From Nocardioidaceae bacterium (GTDB lineage Bacteria > Actinomycetota > Actinomycetes > Propionibacteriales > Nocardioidaceae), in assembly GCA_030655315.1 (NCBI GenBank), contig JAURVT010000040.1:1-64000 (forward strand): a stretch of 64,000 bases of DNA, written 5' to 3'. A program made the position numbers and the translations under genes. Under the pieces are notes generated by a model. That model had not been told where the DNA came from and did not search any database. It worked only from the letters and a program-made list of their open reading frames with translations. Shown here in pieces: positions 37,881 to 64,000 of this stretch. Every line of letters starts with the position of its first letter. Position 1 is the first letter of the stretch.

Positions 37881-38080
37881 CGTCTCGGTCTGCGAGACGG
37901 ACTGCCTGCTGGCGCGGGCTGACCGTGGCAAACGGCGCGAAACACGGCATATTCACCACGGTCAGCACCTGTTTGCCTGAGTCGGTGTGACCTGTGGGGT
38001 GGACGGGATCAGCCGTCTCACCCACCGAGACCACAGGCGGGACGTGCACCCGACCTACGGCCGCAGCCCGCGCCGTCCTC
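37881..38080. repeat. Repeat A, copy 1
   Basis: 200 bases, identical at about 85% to copy 2 with no gaps; copies are 573 bases apart. Bounded by two small stems conserved in both copies: CGTCTCG/CGAGACG (37881-37899) and GTCTC/GAGAC (38015-38031). Inside, GCTGACCGTGG (37918-37928) pairs with CCACGGTCAGC (37956-37966) in this copy only. On the minus strand a frame reads GKQVLTVVNMPCFA and FATVSPR in both copies. Confidence 0.9.
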
Positions 38081-38453
38081 GCTGCGCACTTCCGCCCGCC
38101 ACCGCGACGGGTGCGCCCGGGCGCGGTCGCTCGTGCTCGGGTGGCCGGCGCCGCTGCAGGCCGGGGCTCAGCCCGGACCGTCCCCTGCCTACGGCTGGGA
38201 CGTGCGCAGCGAGGACGGCGGCGGCGGCCGTCACCTGCGCGGTACGGCCACCCAACCTCGACCGCTGCCCACGCCGTCCTCGCTGCGCACTTCCGCCCAC
38301 CACCGCGACGGGTGCGCCCGGGCGCGGTCGGTCGTGCTCGGGTGTCCGGCTCCGCTGCCAGTCGGGGCTCAGCCCGGACCGTCCCCAGCTCGAGGCTGGG
38401 AAGTGCGCAGCGAGGACGGCGGCGGCGGCCGTCACCTGCGAGGTGTGGGCCGC

Positions 38454-43389: not shown

Positions 43390-43436
43390 TGCGGGGCCTG
43401 GCGTGGTGAGGCGCGGCCCCGCAGGGTCGCGCCTCA
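43390..43436 (-). promoter_or_regulatory. Two mutually exclusive stems between leuB and ilvE
   Basis: Stem 1 pairs TGAGGCGCG with CGCGCCTCA (43428-43436 and 43407-43415) and includes the leuB stop. Stem 2 pairs TGCGGGGCC with GGCCCCGCA (43415-43423 and 43390-43398). They share 43415, so only one can form fully. No U run follows, so this may set mRNA stability or read-through rather than terminate. Confidence 0.45.
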
Positions 43437-44504
43437 GGGCGTGGGTACGGCCTCGGCCACCCTGGTGGCGATGGCCCGACCCACCTCCTCGGTGGTGCGT
43501 GCGGCGGTGCCGCGCTCGGCGATGTCGGCGACGACGGCGGCCTCGACCTCGGCGGCGGCCCGCGGCTCGTCGTGGTGCTCCAGCAGGAGCGACATCGACA
43601 GGATCGCCGCGGTGGGGTCGGCCTTGCCCTGGCCGGCGATGTCGGGCGCCGATCCGTGGACGGGCTCGAACATGCTCGGGAACGCGCGCTCGGGGTTGAT
43701 GTTGCCGCTGGCGGCGAGGCCGATGCCTCCGCTGATCGCGCCGGCCTGGTCGGTGAGGATGTCGCCGAACAGGTTGTCGGTGACGATCACGTCGAAGCGG
43801 GACGGGTCGGTGGTGAGGAAGATCGTGGCGGCGTCCACGTGGAGGTAGTCCACGGTGACGTCGGGGAACTCGGTGGCCACCTCGTCGACCAGGCGGGACC
43901 ACAGGTTGCCCGCGTGCACGATGACGTTGGTCTTGTGGACCAGCGTCAGCCTGCGGCGCGGACGGGCCTGCGCCTTGGCGAAGGCGTAGCGGACGACGCG
44001 CTCGACGCCGTACGCGGTGTTGACGCTGACCTCGGTGGCGATCTCGTGCGGGGTGCCCGCACGGATCACGCCGCCGTTGCCGGCGTAGGGACCCTCGGTG
44101 CCCTCGCGGACGACGACGAAGTCGACCTCGCCCGGGTCGCGCAGCGGTGAGGTGACCCCGGGGAAGATCCGGGTGGGCCGCAGGTTCACGTAGTGGTCCA
44201 GCTGGAACCGCAGCCGCAGCAGCAGGCCCCGCTCGAGCAGGCCGGCCGGGATCCGGGGGTCGCCCGGCTTCCCGCCGATCGCTCCGAGGACGATCGCGTC
44301 GTGGGTGACGATCTCGGCGAGCGTCTCGTCGGGCAGCACCTCGCCGGTCGCGAGGTAGTGCTCGGCACCGAGCGTGAAGCGGCGCGTGGTGATCGAGAGG
44401 TCGTGCCGGGTGGCGACCTGCTCGAGGACGCGGAGCGCCTCGTCGGTCACCTCGGGGCCGATGCCGTCGCCGGGGACGACGGCCAGGGACAGGGAGCGCG
44501 TCAT
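43434..44504 (-). CDS. leuB: 3-isopropylmalate dehydrogenase
   Basis: 356 residues. NAD-dependent oxidative decarboxylase of leucine synthesis. [88 protein letters not shown] and [20 protein letters not shown] are diagnostic. Short actinobacterial type. ATG 44504. Upstream lie two possible small genes and a strong hairpin. Confidence 0.95.
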
Positions 44505-44718: not shown

Positions 44719-44871
44719 TCACGTCGTGGACAGGGCTGCGGGTCCGGGACGGCCGGGACCCTGCCGATGCCACGCGCCGGTCCGACCGACGGATCGCGTC
44801 GGGAGGAGCTGGAGCCTGAGACGAGTGATGCGGATGGCGATGTCGTCCTCGCGGCGGAAGTCCCGGGCCAT
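44719..44871 (-). CDS. Possible 50-residue small protein
   Basis: Frame from ATG 44871 (GGAG seven bases upstream) to TGA at 44719, 12 bases ahead of the 39-residue gene. It begins MARDFRREDDIAIRITRLRL, a basic amphipathic helix, and ends Gly/Pro-rich. G or C at most third positions is expected by chance at this GC, so support is weak. Confidence 0.35.
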   Translation of the reverse strand: MARDFRREDDIAIRITRLRLQLLPTRSVGRTGAWHRQGPGRPGPAALSTT

Positions 44872-45052: not shown

Positions 45053-45616
45053 GTGAGTGCCCCCACCGACGTCCCGCCGCTGGTGGCCAGGGCTCTCGAC
45101 CTGTCCCGTCGCGAGGGCTTCATCACCTCCACCCGGACCGAGACCGGCCGTCTGCTGGCGGCCCTGGCCGCGATGCGCGTGGGCACGCTCGCCGAGCTCG
45201 GCACCGGCTGCGGCGTCGGGTCGGCCTGGATCTCCAGCGGCATGCCCGAGGGCGCGCGGGTCGTCAGCGCCGAGCTCGACCCGAGGCTGGCCGGCAAGGT
45301 GCAGCGGATCTTCGACGACGTGCCGCAGGTGGAGGTCACGGCCGGCGACTGGAGCACGCTCGAGCAGTACGCCCCGTTCTCGCTGCTCTTCGTCGACGTG
45401 CGCGACGTCAAGCGCACCGTCGACGCCGTCGCCGACCTGATGGAGCCCGGCGGCGTCGCCGTGCTCGACGACTTCACCCCGTGCCACACCTGGCCCCCCA
45501 TGTACGAGGGGCGCGTCGACACCCTGCGCGAGCAGTGGCTCACCGACGAGCGGTTCACCGCGGTCGAGGTGATGGTCGCGCCGGACGCCTCCGTCGTCCT
45601 CGCCACCCGCCGCTGA
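45053..45616 (+). CDS. Class I SAM-dependent O-methyltransferase
   Basis: 187 residues. SAM motif TLAELGTGCGVGSAWISSGMP, then VVSAELDPRLAGKVQ, LFVDVRDVKRTVD and PGGVAVLDDFTP. Similar to caffeoyl-CoA/catechol O-methyltransferase-like proteins. Acceptor unknown. GTG 45053. Convergent with the protease gene. Confidence 0.87.
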   Translation: MSAPTDVPPLVARALDLSRREGFITSTRTETGRLLAALAAMRVGTLAELGTGCGVGSAWISSGMPEGARVVSAELDPRLAGKVQRIFDDVPQVEVTAGDWSTLEQYAPFSLLFVDVRDVKRTVDAVADLMEPGGVAVLDDFTPCHTWPPMYEGRVDTLREQWLTDERFTAVEVMVAPDASVVLATRR

Positions 45617-48823: not shown

Positions 48824-48833
48824 GCGGGAGACA

Positions 48834-48875
48834 CCGACCCCGGAGCGACGGACCGCCGGGGTCGGAGCGACGGAT
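48834..48875. repeat. 22-bp-period GCGACGGAT repeat and hairpin, first locus
   Basis: Between convergent MocR and tenA genes. GCGACGGAC (48845-48853) and GCGACGGAT (48867-48875) are 22 bases apart. A perfect 10-base inverted repeat CCGACCCCGG/CCGGGGTCGG (48834-48843, 48856-48865) surrounds the first unit and may terminate transcription in both directions. Same repeat as at 63.3 kb. Confidence 0.7.
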
Positions 48876-61484: not shown

Positions 61485-62354
61485 GTGACCCCCGCCCGCG
61501 TCGTCCTCGCGACGTCGTCCCACGAGCTGGACCGCGACCCCGAGCTCGCGCTCGTCGTCGACGAGCTCGCCGCCGTCGGCGTCGAGGCCGAGGCCGTCGC
61601 CTGGGACGAGGTCGGCCACGACTGGACCGCCCACGAGCTGGTGGTCGTCCGGTCCTGCTGGGACTACACCGAGCGGCTCGGGGAGTTCCTGGCCTGGGCG
61701 CGCGCCGTGCCCGTGCTCGCCAACCCGCTCGCGGTGCTGGAGTGGAACACCGACAAGACCTACCTGCGCGACCTCGACGCCCGCGGCTGCCCGGTGATCG
61801 AGACGGTGTGGGACCCCACCGACGTCGCCGAGCTCGGCGACCACGCCGAGTGGGTGTGCAAGCCGTCGGTCTCGGCCGGCTCGCGCGACACCGCCCGCTG
61901 GTCCGATCCCGTCGACGCGCTCACCCACGCCGCCGAGCTGCGGGCGGCGGGCCGCACGGCGATGGTGCAGCCCTACGTCGCCTCGGTCGACGACGAGGGG
62001 GAGACCGCGCTGCTGTTCGTCGACGACGCCTTCTCGCACGCGATCCGCAAGGCACCGCTGCTCGCGCCGGGCGAGGGGGTGCGCCAGGACCGGTCGTCCG
62101 CGGGCGGCATCACCCCGCGGACGCCCACCGACGCCCAGCTCGACGTCGCCCGCACCGCGCTCGACGTCGTGGCGACCGCGGTGCCGTCGGCCGGGCCCCT
62201 GCTGTACGCGCGGGTCGACCTCGTCACGGGCGCCGACGGCCTCCCCCGGGTGATCGAGCTCGAGCTCACCGAGCCCGGTCTGTTCCTGCCGTGGTCCGAC
62301 GGAGGCGCCGGTCGGCTGTCCGGTGCGATCAGGTCGCGACTGTCAGACTCGTGA
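61485..62354 (+). CDS. ATP-grasp domain protein (RimK/glutathione-synthetase-like)
   Basis: 289 residues. VVVRSCWDYTERLGEFLAWARAVPVLANPLAVLEWNTDKTYLRDL, VCKPSVSAGSRDTAR, TAMVQPYVASVDDEGETALLFVDDAFSHAIRK, and metal-binding VIELELTEPGLFLPW. Likely a ligase forming an amide or peptide bond; substrate unknown. GTG 61485 with AGGAG upstream. Next gene starts one base after its stop. Confidence 0.88.
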   Translation: MTPARVVLATSSHELDRDPELALVVDELAAVGVEAEAVAWDEVGHDWTAHELVVVRSCWDYTERLGEFLAWARAVPVLANPLAVLEWNTDKTYLRDLDARGCPVIETVWDPTDVAELGDHAEWVCKPSVSAGSRDTARWSDPVDALTHAAELRAAGRTAMVQPYVASVDDEGETALLFVDDAFSHAIRKAPLLAPGEGVRQDRSSAGGITPRTPTDAQLDVARTALDVVATAVPSAGPLLYARVDLVTGADGLPRVIELELTEPGLFLPWSDGGAGRLSGAIRSRLSDS

Positions 62355-62355
62355 G

Positions 62356-63264
62356 ATGGCGATCCTCCCGGCACCCTCGATCGTCAGTGCGCCCGTCGAG
62401 CTGATCCGCCGCCGGCTCGGGGCGACGATCTTCGCCCGGGTGGCCGGCGACGAGGGACCCCAGCGACGCGAGCGCATCCACGGCGCCGACGGTCCCCGTC
62501 CGTTCGACGCCGACGACCCGATCCAGCGCGTGCACTCCGACGCGTCGATGTTCGTCGGCGGCATGCGCGCTCTGCTGCTCCAGTCGCTGCACCCGCTCGC
62601 GATGGCAGCCGTGGACCAGCACTCGGGCTACCGCGGTGACCCGTGGGGCCGCCTGCAGCGCACCAGCACGTTCCTCGCCGAGACCACCTTCGGCACCGCC
62701 GCCGACGCCGAGCGGGCCGTCCGCATCGTCCGCGCGGTGCACTCGCGCATCACCGGCACCGCGCCCGACGGCCGCCCCTACGCGGCCAACGACCCGTGGC
62801 TGCTGCGCTGGGTGCACGTCGCCGAGGTCGACAGCTTCCTGACCGCGCACGACCGCTTCGGGTCGCGACCGCTCGTCGGCGAGGAGCGCGACGTCTACGT
62901 CGAGCAGTTGGGCCGCACCGCCCTCGCGCTCGGGGCCTCCGACGTGCCCACGACCGAGGTCGAGCTGCGGGCCGCGCTCGCGGAGTTCCGTCCCGAGCTC
63001 GAGAGCACCGCGGCCGCCCGCGGCGCCGCCCGGTTCATGCTGCTCAACCCGCCGATCCCGCTGGCGATGCGCGCCCCCTACGGCGTGCTGTCGGCCACGG
63101 CGGTCTCGACGCTCCCCCGCTGGGCGCGGCGTCCGCTGCGGCTGCCGTACCTCCCGCTGACCGAGGCCACCACGGTCCGGGCGAGCGGCGCGGTGCTGAC
63201 CACGGCGATCCGGTGGGCCATGCGCCCGCCCGCACCGACCTCCGTCGACGCGACCGCCACCTGA
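62356..63264 (+). CDS. MpaB-type (DUF2236) oxygenase-like protein
   Basis: 302 residues. RVHSDASMFVGGMRALLLQSLHPLAMAAVDQHSGYRGDPWGRLQRTSTFLAETTFG and LLRWVHVAEVDSFLTAHDRFG are signatures of the DUF2236/rubber-oxygenase family; conserved His in LHPLAMA and WVHVAEV are haem-ligand candidates. Coupled to the ATP-grasp gene. Substrate unknown. Confidence 0.87.
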   Translation: MAILPAPSIVSAPVELIRRRLGATIFARVAGDEGPQRRERIHGADGPRPFDADDPIQRVHSDASMFVGGMRALLLQSLHPLAMAAVDQHSGYRGDPWGRLQRTSTFLAETTFGTAADAERAVRIVRAVHSRITGTAPDGRPYAANDPWLLRWVHVAEVDSFLTAHDRFGSRPLVGEERDVYVEQLGRTALALGASDVPTTEVELRAALAEFRPELESTAAARGAARFMLLNPPIPLAMRAPYGVLSATAVSTLPRWARRPLRLPYLPLTEATTVRASGAVLTTAIRWAMRPPAPTSVDATAT

Positions 63265-63268
63265 CGCG

Positions 63269-63388
63269 ATCCGTCGCTCCCGCCCCACCCGTCCGGCGGT
63301 CCCGCCCTCACGTCGCTTGCGGGTCAGGGGCCGGCGCGACGGATGGCGGGGGCCGGAGCGACGGATCGCGGGGGTGGGAGCGACGGAT
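63269..63388. repeat. 22-bp-period GCGACGGAT repeat, second locus
   Basis: Three GCGACGGAT units at 63336, 63358 and 63380, exactly 22 bases apart, and an inverted ATCCGTCGC at 63269. Flanks read GGGGGTGG/GGGGCCGG. Lies between convergent mpaB and dehydrogenase genes, as the first locus does between mocR and tenA. Confidence 0.75.
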
Positions 63389-63394
63389 GGCGGA

Positions 63395-64000
63395 TCAGGT
63401 GGAGGAGCCGATCACGACGTTGCGCAGCTCCTCGCCCGCGACGTAGCGCTCGACCTGGTCGCGGATCAGCGCGCGCACCCGCGGCGCCATGGCCTGGGTG
63501 CCGCCGGCGACGTGGGGTGAGACGAGCACGCCCGGCGCCGACCACAGCGGGTGGTCCGCGGGCAGCGGCTCGGGGTCGGTGACGTCGAGCGCGGCGCGCA
63601 GGCGTCCCCGTCCGAGCTCGACGAGCAGCGCATCGGTGTCGACGACGGGTCCGCGCGCCATGTTGACGAGCAGCGCGCCGTCCTTCATCCCGGCGAGGAA
63701 GCCCGCGTCGACCAGGTGCCGGGTGGAGCCCGTGAGCGGCACGAGGAGCACGACGACGTCGGCGGCGGGGAGCAGGTCGGGCAGCTCGTCCATCGTGTGC
63801 ACGCCGTCACGCGGGCGCCGCGCCACCCGGACGATCTCGCACTCGAAGCCGTCGAGACGGCGCTCGAGCGCGGCGCCGATGCTGCCGTGGCCCACGATCA
63901 GGACGGAGCGGTCGGCGAGCGACGGCCCACGGTGCTCCTGCTCCCACGTGCCGGTGGCCTGCTGGCGCACCCAGCGGGGCACGTCGCGCAGGCTCGCGAG
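63395..64000 (-). CDS. D-2-hydroxyacid dehydrogenase, C-terminal part (5' end outside window)
   Basis: At least 201 codons; the gene continues past the right edge. NAD motif VLIVGHGSIGAALERRL, LLVPLTGSTRHLVDAGFLAGMKDGALLVNMARGPVVDTDALL with the catalytic Arg in NMARG, and DVTDPEPLPADHPLWSAPGVLVSPHVAGG with Glu and His of the catalytic triad. Reduces or oxidises a 2-hydroxy acid; GhrA-like or phosphoglycerate-dehydrogenase-like. Confidence 0.9.
   Translation of the reverse strand, partial: LASLRDVPRWVRQQATGTWEQEHRGPSLADRSVLIVGHGSIGAALERRLDGFECEIVRVARRPRDGVHTMDELPDLLPAADVVVLLVPLTGSTRHLVDAGFLAGMKDGALLVNMARGPVVDTDALLVELGRGRLRAALDVTDPEPLPADHPLWSAPGVLVSPHVAGGTQAMAPRVRALIRDQVERYVAGEELRNVVIGSST

Follow-up and report, generated by a model that had tools for sequence, protein, structure and literature searches.

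The window, that is the whole stretch of 64,000 nucleotides analysed here, comes from contig JAURVT010000040.1 of a Nocardioidaceae bacterium (the source genome, G000). Near its right end lie two convergent genes whose 130-bp intergenic gap is filled by an array of 22-bp units in two orientations; as judged by self-similarity at a lag of 22, the array comes to within 5 bp of one end of this gap and 1 bp of the other. The features concerned, including further units of the same family within the window, are as follows.

62323-63264, forward strand: mpaB/Lcp-like oxygenase gene, left convergent neighbour (PF09995, E 4e-60)
63269-63290, forward strand: left-arm unit 1, type A (profile score 24.6; inverted partner placed at 63265-63286 by copy comparison)
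63291-63312, forward strand: left-arm unit 2, degenerate (profile score 13.5)
63323-63344, reverse strand: right-arm unit 1 (profile score 16.1)
63345-63366, reverse strand: right-arm unit 2 (profile score 22.7)
63367-63388, reverse strand: right-arm unit 3 (profile score 23.3)
63395-64000, reverse strand: D-2-hydroxyacid dehydrogenase gene, convergent neighbour on the right, truncated by the end of the window (PF02826, E 2.5e-46, over 63395-63982)
about 48832-48875, reverse strand: second array of the window, located between convergent genes and made of two right-arm units (pair pattern at 48847-48874)
44773-44794, reverse strand: lone unit of the same profile (score 19.2)

At 63269-63388 two left-arm units are followed by three inverted right-arm units, the first unit starting 4 bp past the stop codon of the mpaB-like gene and the last ending 6 bp short of that of the dehydrogenase. 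The array has a TRF score of 106, and its three direct copies start at 63327, 63349 and 63371, with spacings of 22 and 22 bp and identities to the first copy of 100, 91 and 86%. The initial annotation, which described three units in exact 22-base register and an inverted copy between convergent mpaB and dehydrogenase genes, is borne out by these copies, by the partner at 63265-63286 and by the Pfam matches on either side, although its count of three units plus one overlooked the second, degenerate left-arm unit at 63291-63312. It had also treated the array as one locus of a repeat family, and the other locus it had in mind corresponds to the two-unit array at about 48832-48875, where the unit at 48854 scores 22.3 and its companion below 9 on the profile. 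The lone unit sits in the gap between called genes at 43434-44504 and 45053-45616. Rfam gave no covariance-model match up to E 1 across 62800-63900. Elsewhere in the window a 201-bp tandem duplication (two copies, 90% matches) lies between called genes at 38047-38444.

The array belongs to a nuclease-linked family that is dispersed over the whole source genome, from 108 units of which the unit profile was built. The 17-letter unit occurs there with up to two mismatches at 81 places, compared with 46 for the reversed control, and all 40 matches with no or one mismatch fall inside the arrays examined. The pair pattern TCCGNCNNTYC-N11-TCCGNC occurs 46 + 34 = 80 times against 0 + 0 for its reversed control, a count far beyond chance; 65 of these 80 matches lie in the arrays described here, and the other 15, which belong to related but longer repeats ('type D' and a few more), were set aside. 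There are 27 arrays, 16 with units in two orientations and 11 one-armed, and their polarity is fixed, such that left units precede inverted right units in 16 of 16 two-orientation arrays (p 3e-5). Three unit types are built on a common 22-bp frame and are mixed within arrays, namely type A (TCCGTCGCTCC.RCCCC), type B (TCCGTCASTTCYGCYGG) and type C (TCCGGCGGTTCTGC.GG). When 294 genomes sampled from the family were searched for the source-genome unit, only the source itself (80 matches) and G015 (12) stood out, the rest giving 0-4.

Could such arrays simply reflect neutral expansion of tandem repeats in intergenic DNA, copied by recombination without any dedicated protein? Unit sequence does vary inside arrays and unit numbers differ among them, which would suit such an origin. 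Against it stand the fixed 22-bp step within arms and the arm order in 16 of 16 arrays, together with the linkage to a nuclease and the correlation between unit and nuclease that are described below, and we regard a neutral origin as very improbable. Units of one array are more alike (0.79) than units of different arrays (0.71; 3 of 2000 shuffles), a comparison in which types A and B are mixed.

The site occupied in the window is empty in relatives. Among 80 named loci with an mpaB relative, where a dehydrogenase relative was counted at an identity of at least 45%, the two genes adjoin in seven (three Mumia species and four MAGs). No array is present at the mpaB-dehydrogenase site in any of these seven loci, in which the aligned protein ends lie 2-44 bp apart or overlap. 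Because all seven relatives that keep the gene pair carry none, the array was probably gained at this site in the source lineage. As regards a transposon or MITE, inverted arms are present and the array is missing in relatives, which are too distant for a target-site duplication to be read.

The fullest copies of the arrays enclose one gene, identified by inspecting split arrays, whose product combines an AbiEi-like DNA-binding region with a probable PD-(D/E)XK (MTES_1575/DUF559) nuclease. In the source genome a complete type-A copy lies on contig C9 at about 127082-128264 and is the one nuclease-bearing copy among the 27 arrays; of the nine nuclease matches of this genome five were examined, and none of these is cognate to type B/C arrays. 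The same protein, at 43-45% identity, is encoded between the arms in G000, G015 and G138. AbiEi models match the N-terminal half to two thirds of all three proteins tested (PADLOC AbiEi, E 6e-19, 1.1e-22 and 7.9e-16), in agreement with the winged-helix and C-terminal domain that mark an AbiEi antitoxin. Across 25 relatives, Pfam searches at E<=0.01 returned AbiEi_4 in 16 and AbiEi_1 in 15, often below the curated cut-offs, and MTES_1575 in 19 and DUF559 in 13. Residues E198, E242, D244 and H249 are among those that are invariant and D231 is nearly so, a pattern to be expected of a PD-(D/E)XK nuclease; the C-terminal domain is a probable member of that group. No solved structure matches the nuclease-family profile. 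Relatives at E <= 0.001 are found in 43 of 43 genomes tested, which comprised 21 array-positive and 22 array-negative genomes as classified by pair patterns. With regard to a phage origin, which was rejected, a close-relative search of viral_contigs gave no relative of two nucleases. Two gene-split arrays of the source genome enclose ordinary genes between left and right arm, an SMR-family transporter gene (L251:2624-2938) in one and a D-glutamate cyclase gene (L260:1793-2575) in the other, as if arrays were able to enclose other genes.

A second candidate for the cognate enzyme, the DUF222/HNH proteins, was rejected: these go with the longer 'type D' repeat, and the far flank of the gene is arrayless in four distinct loci, although DUF222/HNH genes do lie beside some arrays in G131 and G166. 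The DUF222/HNH repeats, which we take to be of the 13E12 type, resemble the present family in that multi-copy genes lie beside inverted repeats in the same genomes, but they involve a different protein family and an inverted repeat of their own. This 'type D' repeat (TCCGTCTGTTCGGCCGCACCCATCCGCC with its partner) is longer and dispersed, bears a likeness to type B units, and is found close to genes of a single DUF222 (PF02720) subfamily and at other places too, with source-genome sites on contigs C7, C14, C16, C38, C41 and C44 (L253, L254, L257, L258, L264, L265 and L270). The DUF222 genes in L400, L401, L408 and L409 (G131 and G166) begin beside right-arm arrays and are preceded by a common upstream stretch with TTTTCCACAGGC or similar. 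The presumably DnaA-box-like TTGTCCACA occurs, in addition, upstream of two array-borne nucleases (L203 and L330). Finally, palindromes GACCCGTCGC...GCGACGGGTC, which are spaced 42-43 bp and are not 22-bp units, flank the nuclease gene in Nocardioides rubriscoriae (L501) and in G092 (L542).

Arrays and nuclease are linked across genera. As a measure of linkage, the best-scoring tandem lag between 12 and 60 was taken from roughly 450 bp on either side of a gene. The counts pool both sides of genes, the side labels being interchanged for minus-strand loci in L419-L448. From 61 close nucleases (matches above 140 bits) 51 were scored, belonging to 31 genomes; an array is present on at least one side in 46 of the 51 and on both sides in 32, with five of the 51 being either seeds (three) or members of loci chosen for arrays (L442 and L394). 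Distant paralogues (78-117 bits, n=20) gave four and none, respectively, and none at lag 22, while random genes from arbitrary stretches (n=480) gave 74 and six; every comparison between close, distant and random genes has p < 1e-6. The lags on scoring nuclease sides are 22 (51 sides), 32 (11), 21 (7), 44 (4), 31 (2) and others (3), compared with lag 22 on 9 of 960 random-gene sides. The five nucleases below threshold are L427, L428, L436, L454 and L420, the last with short arrays that are visible by eye. Arrays with other units or periods were found in several genomes classed as array-negative (G083, G020, G116, G058, G099, G064 and G087).

In named genomes 17 of 30 best copies score above threshold on at least one side and 13 have no array above it on either side. 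Those flanked by arrays are found in Mumia quercus, M. xiangluensis and Mumia sp. zg.B17, in Nocardioides silvaticus, N. ungokensis and Nocardioides sp. Root240, 1609 and Yes46-02, in Aeromicrobium terrae and Aeromicrobium sp. Leaf350, and in Georgenia satyanarayanai (18 bp) and Sanguibacter suarezii (20 bp). The best copies of Mycobacterium, Rhodococcoides, Streptomyces and Kribbella fall below the array threshold. At E <= 1e-60 a relative is present in at least 34 of 296 genomes of the class, at least 19 of them outside the family of the window, with eight candidates scored per genome. Thirteen out-of-family loci were examined (two more were too short), with arrays on both sides in eight and none above threshold in five; these arrays often have the core TGATCATGCA and have periods of 17-63.

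The periods that flank the nuclease cluster at 21-22 and 31-32 bp, that is two or three helical turns, which fits binding on one face of the DNA. Further periods of 17, 18, 20, 26, 33, 38, 44 and 62 bp also exist, and strict helical phasing was therefore rejected as a rule. The suggestion in the initial annotation that the units are phased on one DNA face hence describes what is common and not what is obligatory.

The unit goes with the nuclease and not with the genome. A 22-bp array could be scored for 34 of the 51 nucleases, and among these protein identity correlates with unit identity (Mantel r 0.32, p 0.0002), mainly owing to close pairs. Above 70% protein identity 73% of unit letters are common (eight pairs, one of which reaches only 50%), whereas paralogues within one genome have a unit identity of 0.530 (12 pairs) compared with 0.529 for different genomes, and shuffled units give 49%.

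The 22-bp step can also be seen without reference to the nuclease. In 807 intergenic regions, taken from 80 named loci and from 40 stretches of 20 kb placed arbitrarily in members of the family (8 of the 120 loci being left out for low gene coverage), lag 22 is the top self-similarity in 20 regions, compared with two each for lags 21 and 23 and none in composition-shuffled sequence. A single Kribbella locus, whose repeat is of 11 bp, accounts for eight of the 20, and four of the other 12 come from G022 and G239, already known as repeat carriers; of these 12, one (L094, Streptomyces) is doubtful and the rest are from Nocardioidaceae or Propionibacteriales. The Kribbella tandem repeat (GGACCTCT core) lies upstream of a gene in several species (L054, L058, L067, L068, L077, L092, L108, L109 and L110), and its 11-bp period was rejected, being apparently that of one orthologous locus. 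Many lag-22 regions have a common core, TGACNNNTC at a 22-bp repeat. When 391 genomes of the order were searched for this pattern, 19 gave 9-178 matches, against 0 or 1 for their controls; all 19 belong to the family of the window, and the other three families gave 0-2 matches. The source genome has no match to it, because its own units carry other letters there. Thus the 22-bp step is general, and the centre and tail of the unit are specific to each genome.

The arrays prefer gaps behind stop codons. Of 67 lag-22 arrays that are bounded by two called genes (25 from the source genome and 42 from nine others), 30 lie in convergent gaps compared with 125 of 755 baseline intergenic gaps (p 3e-7), and five in divergent gaps compared with 239 of 755 (p 9e-6). 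Of 60 array edges in convergent gaps, 37 overlap the stop codon or come to within 7 bp of it; a unit can even provide the TGA, as in G138 and G195. Where one-armed arrays lie between co-directional genes, 14 of 17 point away from the stop (p 0.013), or 14 of 19 if L207 and L397 are included (p 0.064), an orientation that is suggestive only. This placement is what would be expected if the arrays were bidirectional terminators, or hairpins protecting 3' ends, that insulate convergent genes and carry the nuclease as a passenger. The two strands of the window array do fold strongly (-98.6 and -88.1 kcal/mol, z -6.7 and -5.2 against shuffles), which also favours such a role. Yet there are no terminator-like sites and no U-tract at 63000-63700, and the 11 one-armed arrays among the 27 of the source genome are unable to form a hairpin.

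The arms give little sign of a selected stem either. Symmetric units score 0.786 compared with 0.778 for non-symmetric ones (p 0.58), and an arm matches its partner in the same array no better than it matches the arms of other arrays, the values for own partner and other arrays being 0.477 and 0.510 for type A (seven arrays), 0.387 and 0.488 for type B (seven arrays), and 0.538 and 0.513 in 13 arrays of four other genomes (p 0.15). A selected hairpin is argued against because the arms lack co-variation, and a terminator role would leave unexplained why the unit differs with each nuclease within one genome; we consider it unlikely. The proposal of serial terminators made from the sequence at the outset is in keeping with the folding, far beyond shuffles on both strands, but finds no counterpart in a U-tract or in co-variation of the arms. 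Two further candidates were rejected by eye: a C-rich outward strand or Rho site, seen in type A only, with several other genomes having units that are not C-rich, and a G-quadruplex, with G-runs in type A only.

What, then, is the array in the window? The best explanation overall, and one that we hold to be reasonably likely, is that it represents a solitary, gene-less copy of a dispersed nuclease-linked element. A complete copy would consist of a left arm of ~22-bp tandem units, the gene for the AbiEi-like region fused to the probable nuclease, and an inverted right arm. A unit probably corresponds to one site at which the cognate AbiEi-like protein binds, since known AbiEi proteins bind 23-bp repeats, as described for AbiEi and for Rv2827c, which binds four at once (PMC7319586); one unit per protomer would be the simplest reading. 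The alternative guess of the initial annotation, a protein-binding array, is in this respect its better half, as like arrays flank a gene with an AbiEi-like DNA-binding region. Cutting by the nuclease would take place at or close to arrays, which would be spread and resized through break repair or unequal exchange, the route being either cutting followed by repair from another array or transposition. This would amount to a selfish strategy comparable to that of REP/RAYT, with any hairpin or terminator action in the host being a by-product.

The AbiEi-like region also invites a reading in which the arrays are operator or tether sites of a regulator, serving autoregulation or a chromosome-held nuclease in a defence system without mobility. 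The AbiEi autoregulator binds 23-bp repeats in its own promoter (PMC7319586), and here the gene is flanked by arrays and its product matches PADLOC AbiEi models. What speaks against operators is that arrays stand at dozens of loci and flank the gene on either side, that they usually follow stop codons and seldom occupy divergent gaps, and that the site is empty in relatives; we find this reading quite unlikely. The AbiEi antitoxin of AbiE (a type IV toxin-antitoxin) and Rv2827c have the AbiEi-like N-terminal region in common with the present proteins, which differ in the fused C-terminal nuclease-like domain. The arrays differ too, being made of abutting units on both sides of the gene and dispersed in the genome, whereas the known 23-bp inverted repeats are described as separated by 3-13 bp (PMC7319586).

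In the part of the open-licence PMC literature that was covered, neither such arrays nor a gene-array pairing of this kind was found described. The nearest published idea there is the REP/RAYT pair, in which small dispersed extragenic inverted repeats form families that differ from species to species, with many solitary copies and with repeats flanking a gene that encodes a DNA enzyme (PMC3733652). The differences are that (i) REPs, of the GTAG kind with RAYT or of the CGTC kind, are described as single 20-40 bp palindromes, compared with tandem arrays of ~22 bp in two arms, and (ii) RAYT is a tyrosine transposase, compared with an AbiEi-like nuclease (PMC3733652). The GTAG tag is not in the unit consensus by column counts. 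The form of CGTC REPs (a stem of 8-9 bp, a loop of 4-5 nt and the CGTC tag) does not describe 22-bp tandem units in multi-unit arms, and CCGTC is missing from many units of other genomes. The same source describes CGTC REPs as being without a dedicated transposase, and its main text does not mention Actinobacteria (PMC3733652).

The present arrangement can also be likened to that of homing endonucleases. A homing endonuclease gene lies inside its own recognition sequence, and here a nuclease gene splits what appears to be its own target repeat. The putative target differs in comprising several units per array and in being present dozens of times in the genome.

Taken together, the repeat family points to a mobile or DNA-binding element of actinobacteria of a kind that has not been described before. 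We would put at about even the chances that it represents a new class of prokaryotic mobile element, found in several families of the actinobacterial class, in which an AbiEi-PD-(D/E)XK nuclease recognises its own tandem array (often of two- or three-turn period), lives between inverted arms and seeds solitary arrays behind stop codons, with nuclease-unit pairs diverging jointly into several independent families per genome. The element may, as a guess, also lie behind CRISPR repeats that are called although cas genes are missing, for example ten that were reported in Nocardioides dokdonensis (PMC5526307). If the explanation is true, many unexplained intergenic repeats of actinobacteria would acquire both a cause and a cognate protein, a REP-like element would have been built on an unrelated nuclease, and the many natural pairs of protein and site would allow the rules of DNA recognition by AbiEi domains to be read.
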